From contig NZ_MUFP01000013.1 of NCBI RefSeq assembly GCF_001996165.1, forward strand, positions 1 through 44,994: DNA of 44,994 nucleotides, written 5' to 3'. The position numbers and the translations under genes were made by a program. This DNA comes from Salinivibrio proteolyticus. Lineage in GTDB: Bacteria > Pseudomonadota > Gammaproteobacteria > Enterobacterales > Vibrionaceae. A model generated the notes under the pieces. That model was not told where the DNA came from. It ran no database searches and saw only the letters and a list, made by a program, of their open reading frames with translations. Below, in pieces: positions 39,280-44,858 of the stretch; positions within the stretch are counted from its first letter, which is position 1; every line of letters begins with the position of its first letter.

Positions 39280-39948
39280 ATGAGCCACTTTTCTCTTGCT
39301 CAGCAGCGTAAAGCGCTGGGTTACCTCGTGATTTTTCATCTACTGATCATTGCCTCCAGTAACTATTTGGTGCAGATCCCCTTTACGGTTTGGGGTTTCC
39401 ACACCACGTGGGGGGCGTTTACCTTTCCGTTTATTTTCTTGGCCACTGATTTAACCGTCAGGATCTATGGTCCGGCATTGGCACGCCGTATTATCTTGCT
39501 GGTAATGGTCCCCTCGCTGCTGATTTCCTACGTGTTATCCGTCTTGTTCTATCAAGGCAGTTACCAAGGGTTTGCGGAGCTGGGCACATTTAACCTCACC
39601 GTCGCTCGGATTGCGATTGCCAGCTTTATGGCTTACTTACTGGGTCAGATTTTAGATATTCATGTGTTCAATCGGTTACGCCAGCAGCGCCAATGGTGGG
39701 TGGCACCGAGTTGTTCCACTTTGTTTGGTAATGCGTCAGACACGCTCGCGTTCTTTGCGATTGCATTTTACCAAAGCCAAGATACCTTTATGGCCGAGCA
39801 CTGGGTTGAAATTGCTTTGGTAGACTATGCCTTTAAGCTGATTATTAGCTTGGGGCTGTTTATTCCTATGTATGGGGTATTGCTCAACCTGATTATTCGA
39901 CGAATCACACAGGTGACGCCGTCGGCGACGGTGCAGCAAACGTCCTAA
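39280..39948 (+). CDS. yhhQ: Queuosine precursor (preQ0/preQ1) transporter YhhQ
   Basis: 222 residues with about six membrane segments (COG1738). Family features: YLVIFHLLIIASSNYLVQIP near the start, FPFIFLATDLTVRIYG, and SCSTLFGNASDTLAFFAIAF followed by DYAFKLIISL. It imports the 7-deazaguanine bases preQ0 or preQ1 for queuosine tRNA modification. A start six codons upstream exists but would lie in the riboswitch region and the ribosome site; Met 39280 has AAGGTG 6 nt ahead. A terminator follows. Confidence 0.92.
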   Translation: MSHFSLAQQRKALGYLVIFHLLIIASSNYLVQIPFTVWGFHTTWGAFTFPFIFLATDLTVRIYGPALARRIILLVMVPSLLISYVLSVLFYQGSYQGFAELGTFNLTVARIAIASFMAYLLGQILDIHVFNRLRQQRQWWVAPSCSTLFGNASDTLAFFAIAFYQSQDTFMAEHWVEIALVDYAFKLIISLGLFIPMYGVLLNLIIRRITQVTPSATVQQTS

Positions 39949-39964
39949 TCAGTAGCAGAATAAA

Positions 39965-39988
39965 GAGTCGCATCGCGGCTCTTTTTTT
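39965..39988 (+). terminator. Terminator after yhhQ
   Basis: AGAGTCGC-ATC-GCGGCTCT is an 8-bp stem with one wobble followed by TTTTTTT. Confidence 0.88.
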
Positions 39989-40009
39989 ACGTCAATGCGG
40001 GGAGGTGAG

Positions 40010-40462
40010 ATGGAAATTCGTGCCGGGCACTTAGAGGTGGCGGTAACGGTGCTTAACAGCGTGCCCGAGTTGGATGCGGGTGTATCCTTGGAACAATGCC
40101 ACGCGCGATTAGCGGGACGCACAGCATTGGTATTGGTGGCGTATCAAAACGGTGAGCCTGTCGGTGCCAAAATAGGCTATGCCACCAGTAAGACGCAGTT
40201 TTATAGCTGGCTGGGCGGGGTGACCAAAGCGGCCCGAGGTCAAGGGGTGGCGAAAGCCTTGTTACAAGCACAAGAAGCGTGGGTAGCGGCTTCTGGCTAT
40301 CGAACGCTTGCGGTCAAATCACGTAATCGCTTCACGGCGATGGTGTGCATGCTGATGCGTCATGGCTATCAGATTGTGGCGTTGGAGCAAAAAGGTCAGC
40401 CTGCCGACTATCGCCTTTATTTTGAGAAGCAGATCAATAAATGTACAGCGAGTGGAAAATAA
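40010..40462 (+). CDS. GNAT-family N-acetyltransferase
   Basis: 150 residues. The acetyl-CoA site is visible as GGVTKAARGQGVAKALLQAQEAW (R/Q-x-x-G-x-G/A), preceded by a beta-strand pair (TALVLVAYQNGEPVGAKIGY) and followed by VKSRNRFTAMVCMLMRHGYQIV, which places an Asn/Arg in the usual region. The substrate is unknown. Met 40010 has GGGGAGGTGAG upstream and is preferred to the frame opening at 39995. The last ~40 bp share patches with DNA 318 bp downstream, so the RyhB duplication may have begun here. Confidence 0.82.
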   Translation: MEIRAGHLEVAVTVLNSVPELDAGVSLEQCHARLAGRTALVLVAYQNGEPVGAKIGYATSKTQFYSWLGGVTKAARGQGVAKALLQAQEAWVAASGYRTLAVKSRNRFTAMVCMLMRHGYQIVALEQKGQPADYRLYFEKQINKCTASGK

Positions 40463-40475
40463 GCGTATTTTTTTC

Positions 40476-40505
40476 TTGATAAACGATAATGAGAATGGTT
40501 ATTAT
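40476..40505 (+). promoter_or_regulatory. Promoter and Fur box of RyhB copy 1
   Basis: TTGATA (40476-40481), an 18-bp spacer and TATTAT (40500-40505). The overlapping 19-mer GATAATGAGAATGGTTATT (40485-40503) matches 15 of 19 bases of the Fur consensus. Fur with Fe2+ would block this promoter when iron is plentiful. Confidence 0.82.
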
Positions 40506-40511
40506 TAACTT

Positions 40512-40655
40512 GCACTCAGGGCCAAGCCCACATGCTCAGCTCTGAAGGCACGACATTGCTCACATTGCTTCCAGTGTATTAGCGGGGCGCTTATCAAACA
40601 GTGATTAAGTTAGCCTATTTTTGCTAGGCGACACCTTTCGGGGTGTCGCTTTTTT
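40512..40655 (+). ncRNA. ryhB: RyhB-family iron-stress sRNA, copy 1
   Basis: A predicted transcript of about 145 nt from the Fur-regulated promoter to the terminator. The segment at 40541-40575 matches the E. coli RyhB core except for one base, including GACATTGCTCACATTGCTTC. In enterics and Vibrio, RyhB is made when Fur-Fe2+ leaves its promoter and, with Hfq, represses mRNAs of iron-using proteins. The same job is inferred. Between the core and the terminator lies a second small hairpin GCCTA-N7-TAGGC (40612-40628). Terminal ends are estimates. Confidence 0.9.
40628..40655 (+). terminator. Terminator of RyhB copy 1
   Basis: GCGACACC-N6-GGTGTCGC is an 8-bp perfect stem with TTTTTT after it. 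Confidence 0.92.
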
Positions 40656-40782
40656 CTTTTCTGGACACTGGCTTTTCGAACCAGAGTTGTTGGCGTGATG
40701 GCGGTGGGTGCAATGACAGTTTGATGACAACGAGTGAGTCTGAGCACAAGATCAATAAATGAAAAAGATTCTCAACTAAGTG

Positions 40783-40811
40783 TTGAAAGTGGGAATGAGA
40801 ATGGTTATTGT
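40783..40811 (+). promoter_or_regulatory. Promoter and Fur box of RyhB copy 2
   Basis: TTGAAA (40783-40788), a 17-bp spacer and TATTGT (40806-40811). The overlapping Fur-type 19-mer GGGAATGAGAATGGTTATT (40791-40809) matches 13 of 19 consensus bases, fewer than copy 1, and its -10 is also weaker. Copy 2 may therefore be weaker or differently tuned. Confidence 0.76.
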
Positions 40812-40817
40812 TAACTT

Positions 40818-40967
40818 GCGTTCGGGGCAAAGCCCACATGCTCAGCTCTGAAGGCACGACATTGCTCACATTGCTTCCAGTGTATTGGGGCCAGCAAACT
40901 GTTCTGATAACAGCTTTGTTTTTGCGCTCACTTGTTATAGCGACGCCCATCTCGGCGTCGCTTTTTT
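40818..40967 (+). ncRNA. ryhB: RyhB-family iron-stress sRNA, copy 2
   Basis: A predicted transcript of about 150 nt. Its RyhB core (40847-40881) is identical to copy 1. The 5' end differs at four or five bases, and the stretch between core and terminator is unrelated (40887-40939). Identical cores with different flanks suggest shared main targets with possible differences in stability or extra targets. Ends are estimates. Confidence 0.88.
40940..40967 (+). terminator. Terminator of RyhB copy 2
   Basis: GCGACGCC-N6-GGCGTCGC is a perfect 8-bp stem with TTTTTT. Compared with copy 1, an A-T pair has become G-C with both sides changed, which keeps the stem. Confidence 0.92.
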
Positions 40968-41005
40968 CTTTTTCTCTGCTGCGTTTCTGTGCGGATGAGA
41001 GTGTT

Positions 41006-41656
41006 TTAGGCGAGCTCCACCAATTTTTTCACCATCCGATTGATCCCACCGGCGGCATCCAGTACTGATGTCGCGAGCATATAAGCGGGCGTAGAAAGTA
41101 GGTGATGGCGCTGATCTAACACATAATCCGATACCGGACACTCAATGTGCTCACCGCCCATCCGGTTAAAGGCGGCAGCGATATCGGGCTCATTACCAAT
41201 GGTACCTTTGACGCCTTTTGGATAGATCTGCGGGATCATGATAGGGGCAATACACATGTAGCCGGCGGGCTTTTCTGCACGGGCGAAGGCTTGGCAAACC
41301 GCAAACATCTCTTGGTTGACTTGCACCGGATCGCCATTGTAAGCAAAGTCCGATAAGTTTTTCGCCGCGCCAAAGCCGCCGGGAACCAGTAAGGCGTCGA
41401 AGTGGTCGACGTTTAAATCCGTTAGCGGAAGAATCTCCCCACGAACAATACGGCTGGCTTCGGTGAGTACATTGCGTGTCTCGTTCATCGCTTCGCCGGT
41501 ACGATGATCGATCACATGGTGCTGATCGATATCTGGTGCGAAGCATTGCCATTGGGCATCGTTTTGCTCGAGGGCAAGCAGGGATAGGACCACCTCTTGG
41601 ATCTCGGCACCGTCAAACACGCCGCAGCCAGATAAGATAACAGCCACCTTTTTCAT
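41006..41656 (-). CDS. elbB: Isoprenoid biosynthesis glyoxalase ElbB
   Basis: 216 residues (E. coli 217), DJ-1/PfpI superfamily. The start KKVAVILSGCGVFDGAEIQEVV, the motif LLVPGGFGAAKNLSDFA and the nucleophile elbow GYMCIAPIM (Cys about residue 135) identify it. The E. coli protein has glyoxalase III-type activity in vitro and was linked to isoprenoid levels; its physiological role is uncertain. AAGGAGAGCATC precedes the start. It converges on the RyhB genes and is divergent from polA. Confidence 0.93.
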   Translation of the reverse strand: MKKVAVILSGCGVFDGAEIQEVVLSLLALEQNDAQWQCFAPDIDQHHVIDHRTGEAMNETRNVLTEASRIVRGEILPLTDLNVDHFDALLVPGGFGAAKNLSDFAYNGDPVQVNQEMFAVCQAFARAEKPAGYMCIAPIMIPQIYPKGVKGTIGNEPDIAAAFNRMGGEHIECPVSDYVLDQRHHLLSTPAYMLATSVLDAAGGINRMVKKLVELA

Positions 41657-42107: not shown

Positions 42108-44858
42108 ATGGCAACTCTTCCCGACAATCCGTTAATCCTTGTGGATGGCTCTTCGTACCTTTACCGGGCATACCATGCGTCTCCTAACCTCACCAATAGC
42201 CAAGGTGAACCCACTGGAGCCGTCTTTGGGGTGGTGAACATGCTGCGTAGTTTGTTGCGACAATTTCCCCATTCACATGTGGCGGTGATTTTTGATGCCA
42301 AAGGGAAGACATTTCGTGACGATATGTACGAGCAGTACAAAGCCAACCGTCCACCCATGCCAGATGACCTACGCGGGCAAATTGAACCTCTGCATAAGAT
42401 TATTAAAGCGATGGGGCTGCCTTTACTCGCGGTAGAAGGGGTGGAGGCCGATGATGTGATTGGTACACTCGCCACTCAAGCTTCAAAAGCGGGAATGCCG
42501 GTACTGATCAGCACCGGTGATAAAGACATGGCGCAGCTGGTGGATGAGCACGTCACCTTAATCAACACCATGACTAATGTGGTGATGGATCCTGAGGCGG
42601 TGCGTGAAAAGTATGGCTTTGGTCCTGAGCATATTATTGATTACCTTGCCTTGATGGGCGACAAAGTCGATAACATTCCTGGCGTACCGGGTGTCGGCGA
42701 TAAAACTGCGACCGCGTTGATTGCCAATCTAGGCGGCTTGGATGATATTTACGCTAACCTCGATAAGATTGCAGAGCTCAGCTTCCGCGGCGCGAAAAGC
42801 ATGGCGAAAAAACTGACTGAGCATCAAGACTCGGCCTACCTGTCTTATCAGCTCGCCACGATTAAATTGGATGTTGAGCTGGATTTCACCCCTGAACAGC
42901 TGGTCAAGCAAGTGCCAGATAATGACACCTTGGTGGCCATGTATCGTGACTTGCAATTCCGCCGCTGGCTCAAAGAGCTGGATGAAGGCGATGCGCCAGA
43001 AGAAAGCATTTCGGATGAACCCATCCCACAAGAAACCACGATTGATCGCAGTGGCTACCAGACGCTATTAACGCGGGACGCACTGGACACTTGGCTGAAG
43101 AAAATTCGTGACGCTGAGGTGGTGGCGGTCGATACGGAAACCGATAGCCTCAACTATATGGAAGCCAATCTGGTTGGAATTTCATTTGCCGTCGCGCCGG
43201 GTGAAGCGGCGTATGTACCGGTGGCTCATGATTATCTGGAAGCGCCTGCTCAATTATCGCTGGATGAGGTGCTGGAGGTGTTGCGTCCTTGGTTGGAAGA
43301 TCCTTCAGCCGCGAAAGTAGGCCAGAATCTGAAATATGATGCCAGTGTGTTTGCGCGTCACGGGATCACCTTAAAAGGGATCGCCTATGACACCATGCTG
43401 GAATCGTACGTCTATAACAGTGTGGCGGGACGTCATGACATGGACAGCCTCGCTGAGCGTTACTTGCAGCACACCTGCATCAGCTTTGAAGAGATAGCGG
43501 GGAAAGGCAAGAAACAACTGACCTTTAATCAAATTCCTCTTGAGCAAGCGGCACCTTATGCGGCGGAAGATGCCGATATTACGTTGCGTTTGCATCAATA
43601 CCTGATTGGTAAAGTCACCAGTGACGAGAAACTGAAAACTATCTTTGAGTTCTACGAGATGCCGCTAGTCAGCGTGTTGTCGCGCATGGAACGTCATGGT
43701 GTGCTAATCGACAAAGACAAGCTGGCGACCCAATCAGATGCGTTACATACTCGCTTGATTGAGCTTGAGCGTGAAGCGTTTGAGATTGCCGGCGAAGAGT
43801 TCAACTTAAGCTCGCCCAAGCAGCTACAAGCGATTTTGTTTGAGAAAATGGGCCTGCCGGTGGTAAAGAAAACCCCATCAGGCAGTCCCTCAACCAATGA
43901 AGAAGTGCTGCAAGAGCTCTCACTCGATTACCCGCTGCCAGCGCGGATTTTGGAATACCGCGGATTGGCAAAACTCAAATCGACTTACACGGACAAATTG
44001 CCGCGCATGATCAATGCGCAAACCGGCCGTGTGCATACCTCGTATCATCAAGCCGTCACAGCGACGGGGCGCTTATCGTCCACCGATCCGAACTTACAAA
44101 ATATCCCCATTCGTAACGAACAGGGTCGTCGTATTCGAGAAGCCTTCACCGCGGAACCGGATCACACCATTTTGGCGGTCGATTACTCGCAAATCGAATT
44201 GCGAATTATGGCGCACCTATCCGGCGATAAAGCCTTGCTAGAAGCGTTCCGTGACGGCAAAGATATTCACGCCGCCACCGCAGCGGAAGTGATGGGGGTG
44301 AGCCTCGACGAGGTCACCAGCGAGCAGCGCCGCCGCGCTAAAGCGATCAACTTTGGTCTGATTTATGGCATGAGTGCTTTTGGTCTGTCCCGTCAGTTAG
44401 GGATTGGCCGTCAAGAAGCACAAAGCTACATGGATACCTACTTTGAACGCTACCCAGGCGTGAAGGCCTATATGGACCGCACCCGTGAGCAAGCGGCGGA
44501 AAAAGGCTATGTAGAAACCATTTTTGGTCGTCGTCTTTATTTGCCGGAAATTAAATCGCGTAATGGCATGCGTCGTAAAGGGGCAGAGCGCGCGGCAATC
44601 AATGCGCCGATGCAAGGAACCGCGGCTGATATTATCAAGCGTGCGATGATACTGGTTGATCAATGGATTCAAGCCAATGCCGCGGATGACGCCCGCCTGG
44701 TGATGCAAGTTCACGATGAACTGGTGTTGGAAGTCAAAACGTCATCTTTATCCAAAGTTGAAAGTGAAGTACGGAAACTGATGGAGTCGGCGGCGGACTT
44801 GGACGTGCCGCTGATTGCTGAGTCTGGACACGGTAATAACTGGGGTGAAGCCCACTAA
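42108..44858 (+). CDS. polA: DNA polymerase I
   Basis: 916 residues (E. coli 928). Three domains are present. The 5'-3' exonuclease spans about residues 1-290 (start [28 protein letters not shown] helix-hairpin-helix). The 3'-5' exonuclease holds the catalytic D342-T-E344 ([10 protein letters not shown]), so proofreading should be active. The polymerase has motif A with D692 ([17 protein letters not shown]), motif [16 protein letters not shown] and motif C H869-D870-E ([10 protein letters not shown]). It removes Okazaki primers and fills repair gaps. Its terminator follows at 44896-44923. The ribosome site is weak. Confidence 0.97.

Follow-up and report, generated by a model that had tools for sequence, protein, structure and literature searches.

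A 44,994-nucleotide stretch of the Salinivibrio proteolyticus genome, referred to below as the window, raises the question of whether two genes standing head to tail at a single locus are both genes for the small RNA RyhB, and of why a second copy should be kept beside the first. The first-pass annotation had proposed such a pair with an offset of 306 bp. This was borne out by a repeat search, in which direct repeat D1 joined 40488-40580 to 40794-40886 at 95% identity and an offset of 306, and by the Rfam covariance-model search that the annotation had suggested, in which RyhB (RF00057) was matched twice with E-values near 1e-8.

Identity and anatomy of the two genes

The results of the RF00057 search gave 51.2 bits (E 1.3e-8) for copy 1 and 51.7 bits (E 9.9e-9) for copy 2, both below the gathering score of 55, which is the curators' threshold and not a biological trait; for this reason a whole-window Rfam scan at the gathering threshold lists no RyhB. 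Across the Vibrionaceae the gathering score of RF00057 was exceeded in 172 of 329 genomes, and 131 of the 303 genomes with a match at E<=0.001 never exceed it. Judged by its core, promoter and synteny, and not by the gathering threshold, the locus is assigned to the RyhB family. The exact RyhB 28-mer stands in each copy (at 40548 and 40854), where a near-exact core had been claimed; a search of both strands of the whole window with up to 9 mismatches allowed gave no third copy of this 28-nt core, and genome-wide (3.6 Mb) exactly two RyhB matches were returned at E<=0.001, by DNA search and by RF00057 alike. The start-to-start distance is 306 nt and some 160 nt lie between the two predicted transcripts (Table 1). 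The predicted ryhB1 and ryhB2 RNAs fold better than shuffled sequences (z -3.6 and -3.8; 1/200 and 0/200 shuffles equal), with the terminator hairpins contributing to both z-scores. PrrF has an Rfam family, and it was not among the five Rfam matches at E<=5 within 40440-41020; weak matches to GcvB, L20_leader and SraB at the locus were dismissed as far below their own gathering scores. A peptide-coding role, as in a dual-function sRNA, was also considered and dropped, the ATG ORFs (of at least 8 codons) that overlap the RNAs being without conservation: a 16-codon ORF across the copy 1 core is present in six of the eight Salinivibrio genomes and missing in S. socompensis and sp. ES.052, and the copy 2 versions of this ORF vary in length and have lost the ATG in S. 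costicola.

Table 1. Features of the tandem ryhB locus and its neighbours (positions in the window).
Feature	Position	Strand	Basis
GNAT-family acetyltransferase gene, 5' neighbour of ryhB1	40010..40462	+	Pfam Acetyltransf_7 E 1.6e-7, above cut-off; synteny
GNAT 3' tail, copied ahead of ryhB2 at 40741-40761 (86%)	40423..40443	+	repeat D3
Copy 1 promoter TTGATA-18-TATTAT	40476..40505	+	promoter scan; TTATTATTA in 8/8 Salinivibrio
Copy 1 overlapping predicted Fur boxes, 15/19 at 40485, 14/19 at 40491	40485..40509	+	consensus match
ryhB1 sRNA, ~147 nt	40512..40658	+	start inferred from -10 hexamer; RF00057; predicted fold
ryhB1 core, exact RyhB 28-mer	40548..40575	+	exact match; RF00057 match 40544-40622
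ryhB1-specific 3' linker, 43/48 columns invariant (8 Salinivibrio)	40579..40625	+	alignment
ryhB1 intrinsic terminator and T tract, hairpin -17.0 kcal/mol, 11 pairs	40626..40658	+	terminator scan (site 40626-40651)
Inter-copy spacer, 53/102 columns invariant	40659..40739	+	40659-40696, 23/59; 40697-40739, 30/43
Second, upstream Fur-like box of copy 2, 12/19 here	40755..40773	+	consensus match
Copy 2 promoter TTGAAA-17-TATTGT	40783..40811	+	promoter scan; TTATTGTTA in 8/8 Salinivibrio
Copy 2 overlapping predicted Fur boxes, 13/19 twice	40791..40815	+	consensus match
ryhB2 sRNA, ~153 nt	40818..40970	+	putative start; RF00057; predicted fold
ryhB2 core, exact RyhB 28-mer	40854..40881	+	exact match; RF00057 match 40850-40922
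ryhB2-specific 3' linker, 42/53 columns invariant (8 Salinivibrio)	40885..40937	+	alignment
ryhB2 intrinsic terminator and T tract, hairpin -16.8 kcal/mol	40938..40970	+	terminator scan (site 40939-40962)
elbB, 3' neighbour	41006..41656	-	NCBIfam ElbB E 2.4e-93, above cut-off; synteny
polA (DNA polymerase I), 3' neighbour	42108..44858	+	NCBIfam DNA polymerase I 1246 bits, above cut-off; synteny

A Fur box, promoter and terminator of its own had been claimed for each copy, and predicted sites of all three kinds were found for both. Using a 19-position Fur consensus matched on the plus strand, predicted Fur boxes were seen to overlie the -10 region in copy 1 (15/19) and in copy 2 (13/19), the copy 1 site at 40485 being the best consensus match on the plus strand of the window. 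Terminator-like sites are commoner in 39900-41600 than expected (5 found vs 2.1); promoter-like matches occur there at chance frequency (2 found vs 1.7 expected), so that the promoter calls rest on position. The promoter, with its -10, differs consistently by copy, TTATTATTA standing in copy 1 and TTATTGTTA in copy 2 of all eight Salinivibrio genomes. Copy 2 has in addition a second Fur-like box upstream, which matches 12/19 in seven of the eight genomes, whereas copy 1 reaches at most 11/19 there; since a 12/19 match is weak by itself, with 39 matches as good or better on the plus strand of the window, the argument for this box is its conserved place. Several Photobacterium and g10 loci match at 13-15/19 in the same position. 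These consistent differences lead us to favour a tuned response, which would be combined with a shared seed.

Conservation of the pair across Salinivibrio

The pair is no oddity of this genome. It is old and genus-wide, being present in all eight Salinivibrio genomes (this one included) with a core spacing of 306-320. The exact 28-nt core is found in all 16 Salinivibrio copies, and the aligned core is invariant in each copy (30/30 columns). The first-pass annotation had also reported a 57-bp block identical between the copies; this holds for the present genome (40524-40580) and fails for the other seven, where the identical block measures 38-39 nt. Outside the core the copies are distinct in 8/8 genomes, though this genome shares more of the 5' part. 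Copy 2 here reads GCTCTG, as does copy 1 here and in S. costicola, and other copy 2 sequences read GCGCTG or GCGTTG; gene conversion is possibly behind the 57-nt identity, a signal of a few bases that could equally be compensatory change in the 5' hairpin.

The 3' linkers had been described as completely diverged and hence free to vary. The divergence between copies stood (35% identity); the freedom did not, because each linker, though different between copies, is held across the genus, with 43/48 columns invariant and a mean identity of 0.95 in copy 1, and 42/53 columns and 0.91 in copy 2. The fourfold sites of elbB, which served as a yardstick, are invariant in 11/95 columns (mean identity 0.54), and the stretch 3' of terminator 2 in 5/32 (0.61). 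The linkers exceed the fourfold sites with Fisher p values of 1e-20 (copy 1) and 1e-16 (copy 2). The spacer, with 53/102 invariant columns and a mean identity of 0.81, itself lies above the fourfold sites (p 1e-9), so that slow change at the locus as a whole may account for some of the linker conservation, and the linker argument is best judged against the spacer, where the p values are 4e-6 (copy 1) and 1e-3 (copy 2). Hairpins were predicted in both linkers by folding; covariation hardly supports linker structure, the pairs with both sides changed amounting to 1/46 (this one lying in the 5' hairpin and outside the linker) and 0/45.

The conserved spacer block 40697-40739 (30/43 columns) continues into an ORF of 12 codons whose last part is the duplicated GNAT tail (MTTSESEHKINK in this genome), and block and ORF together are likely either a duplication relic or an upstream control element. 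S. socompensis (G006, L071) and sp. ES.052 (G007, L075) have kept both ryhB copies where GNAT gives no match or only a short one, and in these two genomes copy 1 differs in the loop of its 5' hairpin, the stem being similar.

Predicted target pairing, known systems and possible reasons for two copies

The pairing test covered two known targets, with start codons picked by rule, in Salinivibrio genes labelled sodB and sdhC by their protein sequences. The core is predicted to pair with the sodB start region in all eight Salinivibrio genomes (0-6/100 shuffles equal), one of the eight sites containing an N, and with the sdhC start region, where the start is GTG, in eight genomes (0-2/100 shuffles equal). 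The sodA comparison, made on six loci after one of seven (L092) was dropped and with no match listed for G001, gave 2-11/100 shuffles equal and is thus a modest contrast, only somewhat weaker than sodB. The genome encodes two Fur-family genes and one hfq, which together with the predicted pairing supports ordinary RyhB action by both copies.

The locus resembles RyhB of E. coli, V. cholerae and A. salmonicida (RF00057) in its exact core, Fur-box promoter, intrinsic terminator and predicted sodB and sdhC pairing, and the ancestral-locus ryhB of Photobacterium and Vibrio in its neighbourhood; unlike RyhB as modelled by RF00057, it has two tandem copies, copy-specific linkers and a sub-gathering score. 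In an A. salmonicida fur mutant ryhB was up 43.7-fold, as given in an excerpt of PMC5511505. Among tandem iron sRNAs PrrF1/PrrF2 of P. aeruginosa are a known case, described in PMC4211561 as tandem, Fur-repressed iron sRNAs without sequence homology to RyhB, largely redundant as a pair and giving PrrH by read-through. The Salinivibrio pair is alike in having two iron-sparing sRNAs head to tail, with Fur repression predicted; the PrrF copies are 95% identical and 95 nt apart (PMC4211561), whereas the Salinivibrio linkers are 35% identical and the transcripts some 160 nt apart. The Salinivibrio locus is a prrF-like arrangement that is unrelated in sequence and whose siblings are more divergent. 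The dispersal of the Salmonella and Yersinia paralogues, to which the annotation had pointed, agrees with Table 1 of PMC4211561, where these siblings are distal, and the same excerpt gives the Yersinia siblings a nearly identical core. RfrA/RfrB (RyhB-1/-2) of Salmonella and RyhB1/RyhB2 of Yersinia are, like the present pair, two true RyhB siblings with diverged flanks, at distal loci instead of in tandem. OmrA/OmrB (tandem) and Qrr are duplicated sRNAs, some differentially regulated (excerpt of PMC4211561), and Vibrio tasmaniensis has a duplicated CsrB (excerpt of PMC6262261); unlike the present pair, these belong to other families and answer other signals. Because the Salmonella and Yersinia siblings are distal and PrrF is non-homologous, true RyhB genes in tandem throughout a genus offer a clean natural system in which to ask what a second copy is for; on the Salinivibrio sequence the seed, the promoter and the 3' module can be separated, and the pairs of Salinivibrio and of Photobacterium may represent independent replicates. 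No paper with both RyhB and Salinivibrio was found in the literature search, and among the matches listed, titles and the beginnings of abstracts did not mention tandem RyhB in Vibrionaceae, which is a weak form of absence.

We think it probable that the locus is an old tandem duplication of the orthologous Vibrionaceae ryhB locus, kept as two active Fur-repressed siblings with one shared seed and with copy-specific promoters and 3' modules. For transcription, Fur control, Hfq use, function and division of labour we infer the following scheme. With iron plentiful, Fur-Fe(II) would cover both promoters; as iron falls, both RNAs would be made, and Hfq-assisted seed pairing at the start codons of mRNAs such as sodB and sdhC would shut off iron-using proteins. 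Each copy has kept a promoter of its own: in copy 1 both the -10 and the proximal Fur box are better, whereas copy 2 has a weaker -10 joined by a second, upstream Fur-like box. Because the seed is held identical, the siblings would share their main targets and their doses would add; because promoter and linker are copy-specific and conserved, the most likely differences between the siblings would be in the threshold of induction, in turnover or in the use of Hfq, and a few additional targets may also set them apart. With a frozen seed between copy-specific, conserved promoters and 3' modules, the best reading is one of shared targets under separate control of timing, amount or stability.

Other reasons for the persistence of two copies were weighed against this. 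Pure dosage, in which fully redundant copies are kept because more RyhB is useful, in the manner of the mild single prrF deletions in P. aeruginosa, would fit the identical seed in all 16 copies and the PrrF1/PrrF2 redundancy described in the cited part of PMC4211561; we regard it as unlikely, given that copy-specific promoters and linkers are conserved across the genus and that the copies are distinct outside the core in 8/8 genomes, though this genome shares more of the 5' part. Somewhat more credence, though still a minor share, is due to target splitting, in which the copy-specific 3' linkers (or the 5' hairpins) would be second pairing regions with mRNA or sponge partners of their own: linkers conserved at 95% and 91% within copies and 35% identical between them count in its favour, but the predicted linker hairpins could equally serve stability or Hfq. 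A third RNA like PrrH, made by read-through of terminator 1 into a long RNA with unique spacer sequence and regulated apart from the short RNAs, is very improbable. The head-to-tail order is that of prrF1-prrF2 and the spacer half 40697-40739 is conserved (30/43 columns), but terminator 1, with 11 pairs, -17.0 kcal/mol and a long T tract, is strong, the first spacer half is weakly conserved (23/59), and promoter function explains the conserved half equally well, as this half stands immediately 5' of the promoter of copy 2 and continues into the GNAT-tail relic. We give practically no credit to an assembly artefact or a degenerate second copy: this assembly is in 51 contigs, but the copies differ throughout their linkers, which makes an assembly duplication unlikely, pairs of the same layout occur in seven other genomes, two of those assembled in 2 contigs, and no copy 2 shows any change in the core.

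Distribution of the tandem and history of the duplication

Comparison of the elbB-GNAT interval in related genomes, which had been suggested as a check, placed the pair in the synteny of the ancestral locus. The neighbour genes are yhhQ (queuosine-precursor transporter), GNAT, elbB and polA, with labels confirmed with Pfam and NCBIfam. In Photobacterium all four lie around ryhB in 23 of the 24 genomes examined, and in Vibrio one ryhB copy precedes polA in 10/10 genomes examined, with a GNAT match in five and no elbB match; since neighbours are shared with both genera, the pair occupies the ancestral Vibrionaceae ryhB locus (GNAT-ryhB-elbB-polA). Within Salinivibrio, GNAT gave no match in S. 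socompensis and a short one only in sp. ES.052, and in S. costicola a contig end truncates it.

The family survey was run with filters able to lose weak copies, so that its copy numbers are to be read as minima. At least one RyhB match (E<=0.001) was found in 303 of 329 Vibrionaceae genomes and none at that threshold in the other 26, which include one near-complete genome each of genera g5 (G041) and g7 (G043). Tandem pairs were found in 15/329 genomes, namely the eight Salinivibrio, 6/52 Photobacterium and 'Vibrio' sp. Of7-15. Outside Salinivibrio, 19 genomes have at least two RyhB matches, seven in tandem (spacing 274-314) and twelve dispersed (three Photobacterium, nine Vibrio). A contig scan of 84,980 species for two exact 23-nt cores 270-330 nt apart returned nine records, five from Salinivibrio, three from Photobacterium (arenosum, galatheae, salinisoli) and one from Vibrio sp. 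Of7-15; it is no full census, having recovered 5/8 Salinivibrio and 3/6 tandem Photobacterium known from the genome search. Beyond the Vibrionaceae, scans were restricted to exact cores at spacings of 270-330 nt and 145-205 nt, and exact tandem cores 145-205 nt apart were found in 0/394 order-level genomes.

A maximum-likelihood tree was built from 37 copies and 284 columns. It included seven single ancestral-locus copies (four Photobacterium, one g8, two g10) and left out the sole Vibrio row (Vib_G141), whose upstream part was unalignable. The tree showed four groups by copy, Salinivibrio 1 (99/99), Salinivibrio 2 (98/100), Photobacterium 1 (100/99) and Photobacterium 2 (96/97); since copies cluster by copy, the duplication is older than the split of the eight Salinivibrio genomes. 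The 21-nt repeat of the GNAT 3' end (D3) ahead of copy 2 likely marks the upstream breakpoint of the tandem duplication, and the copies are probably not simple duplicates of one another, because each has kept a distinct tail and switch.

Whether Salinivibrio and Photobacterium inherited one tandem or made two was judged from the same tree. A single duplication in their common ancestor, followed by loss in most lineages, would account for the same locus and similar spacing in three lineages, and the AU test leaves standing the union of Salinivibrio copy 2 with either Photobacterium copy (p 0.12 for copy 1, p 0.08 for copy 2). That account is doubtful, however, as the same test rejects the union of Salinivibrio copy 1 with either Photobacterium copy (p 0.007 for copy 1, p 0.024 for copy 2), the two Salinivibrio groups join each other (94/86, not starred), and many losses would be needed, no tandem having been found in 46/52 Photobacterium by filters that may lose weak copies. 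In the best tree the twelve copies from the tandem Photobacterium pairs do not form a single group, but the cost of forcing them into one is negligible (p 0.49). These sequences therefore favour, without proving, a separate duplication in each of the two genera. A wider proposal, which we put forward tentatively and at somewhat less than even confidence, is that within the Vibrionaceae a tandem RyhB pair originated independently in two or more lineages, perhaps three (Salinivibrio, a group of Photobacterium and 'Vibrio' sp. Of7-15), each time at this locus, and that in both multi-genome lineages the two copies then acquired conserved promoters and 3' modules of their own while the seed stayed nearly frozen; this would be a repeated route to a two-stage iron-sparing response, with siblings differing in threshold, lifetime or secondary partners.

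Several other arrangements were seen among the relatives. In one Photobacterium (G059, locus L059) the copy 2 core has grown by two additional 9-nt units of the seed repeat that it contains, and this expanded copy has a weaker RF00057 score (36.1 bits). Three Photobacterium have a second, dispersed RyhB (G087, L028/L068; G045, L030/L050; G077, L051), and these second copies have no GNAT, elbB, yhhQ or polA match within 1.5 kb. In Vibrio, G299 (L043) has two core-like matches 27 nt apart, G313 has three RF00057 matches on three contigs, and G311 has four, two on contig C1 and one each on C2 and C3 (52, 44, 40 and 33 bits).
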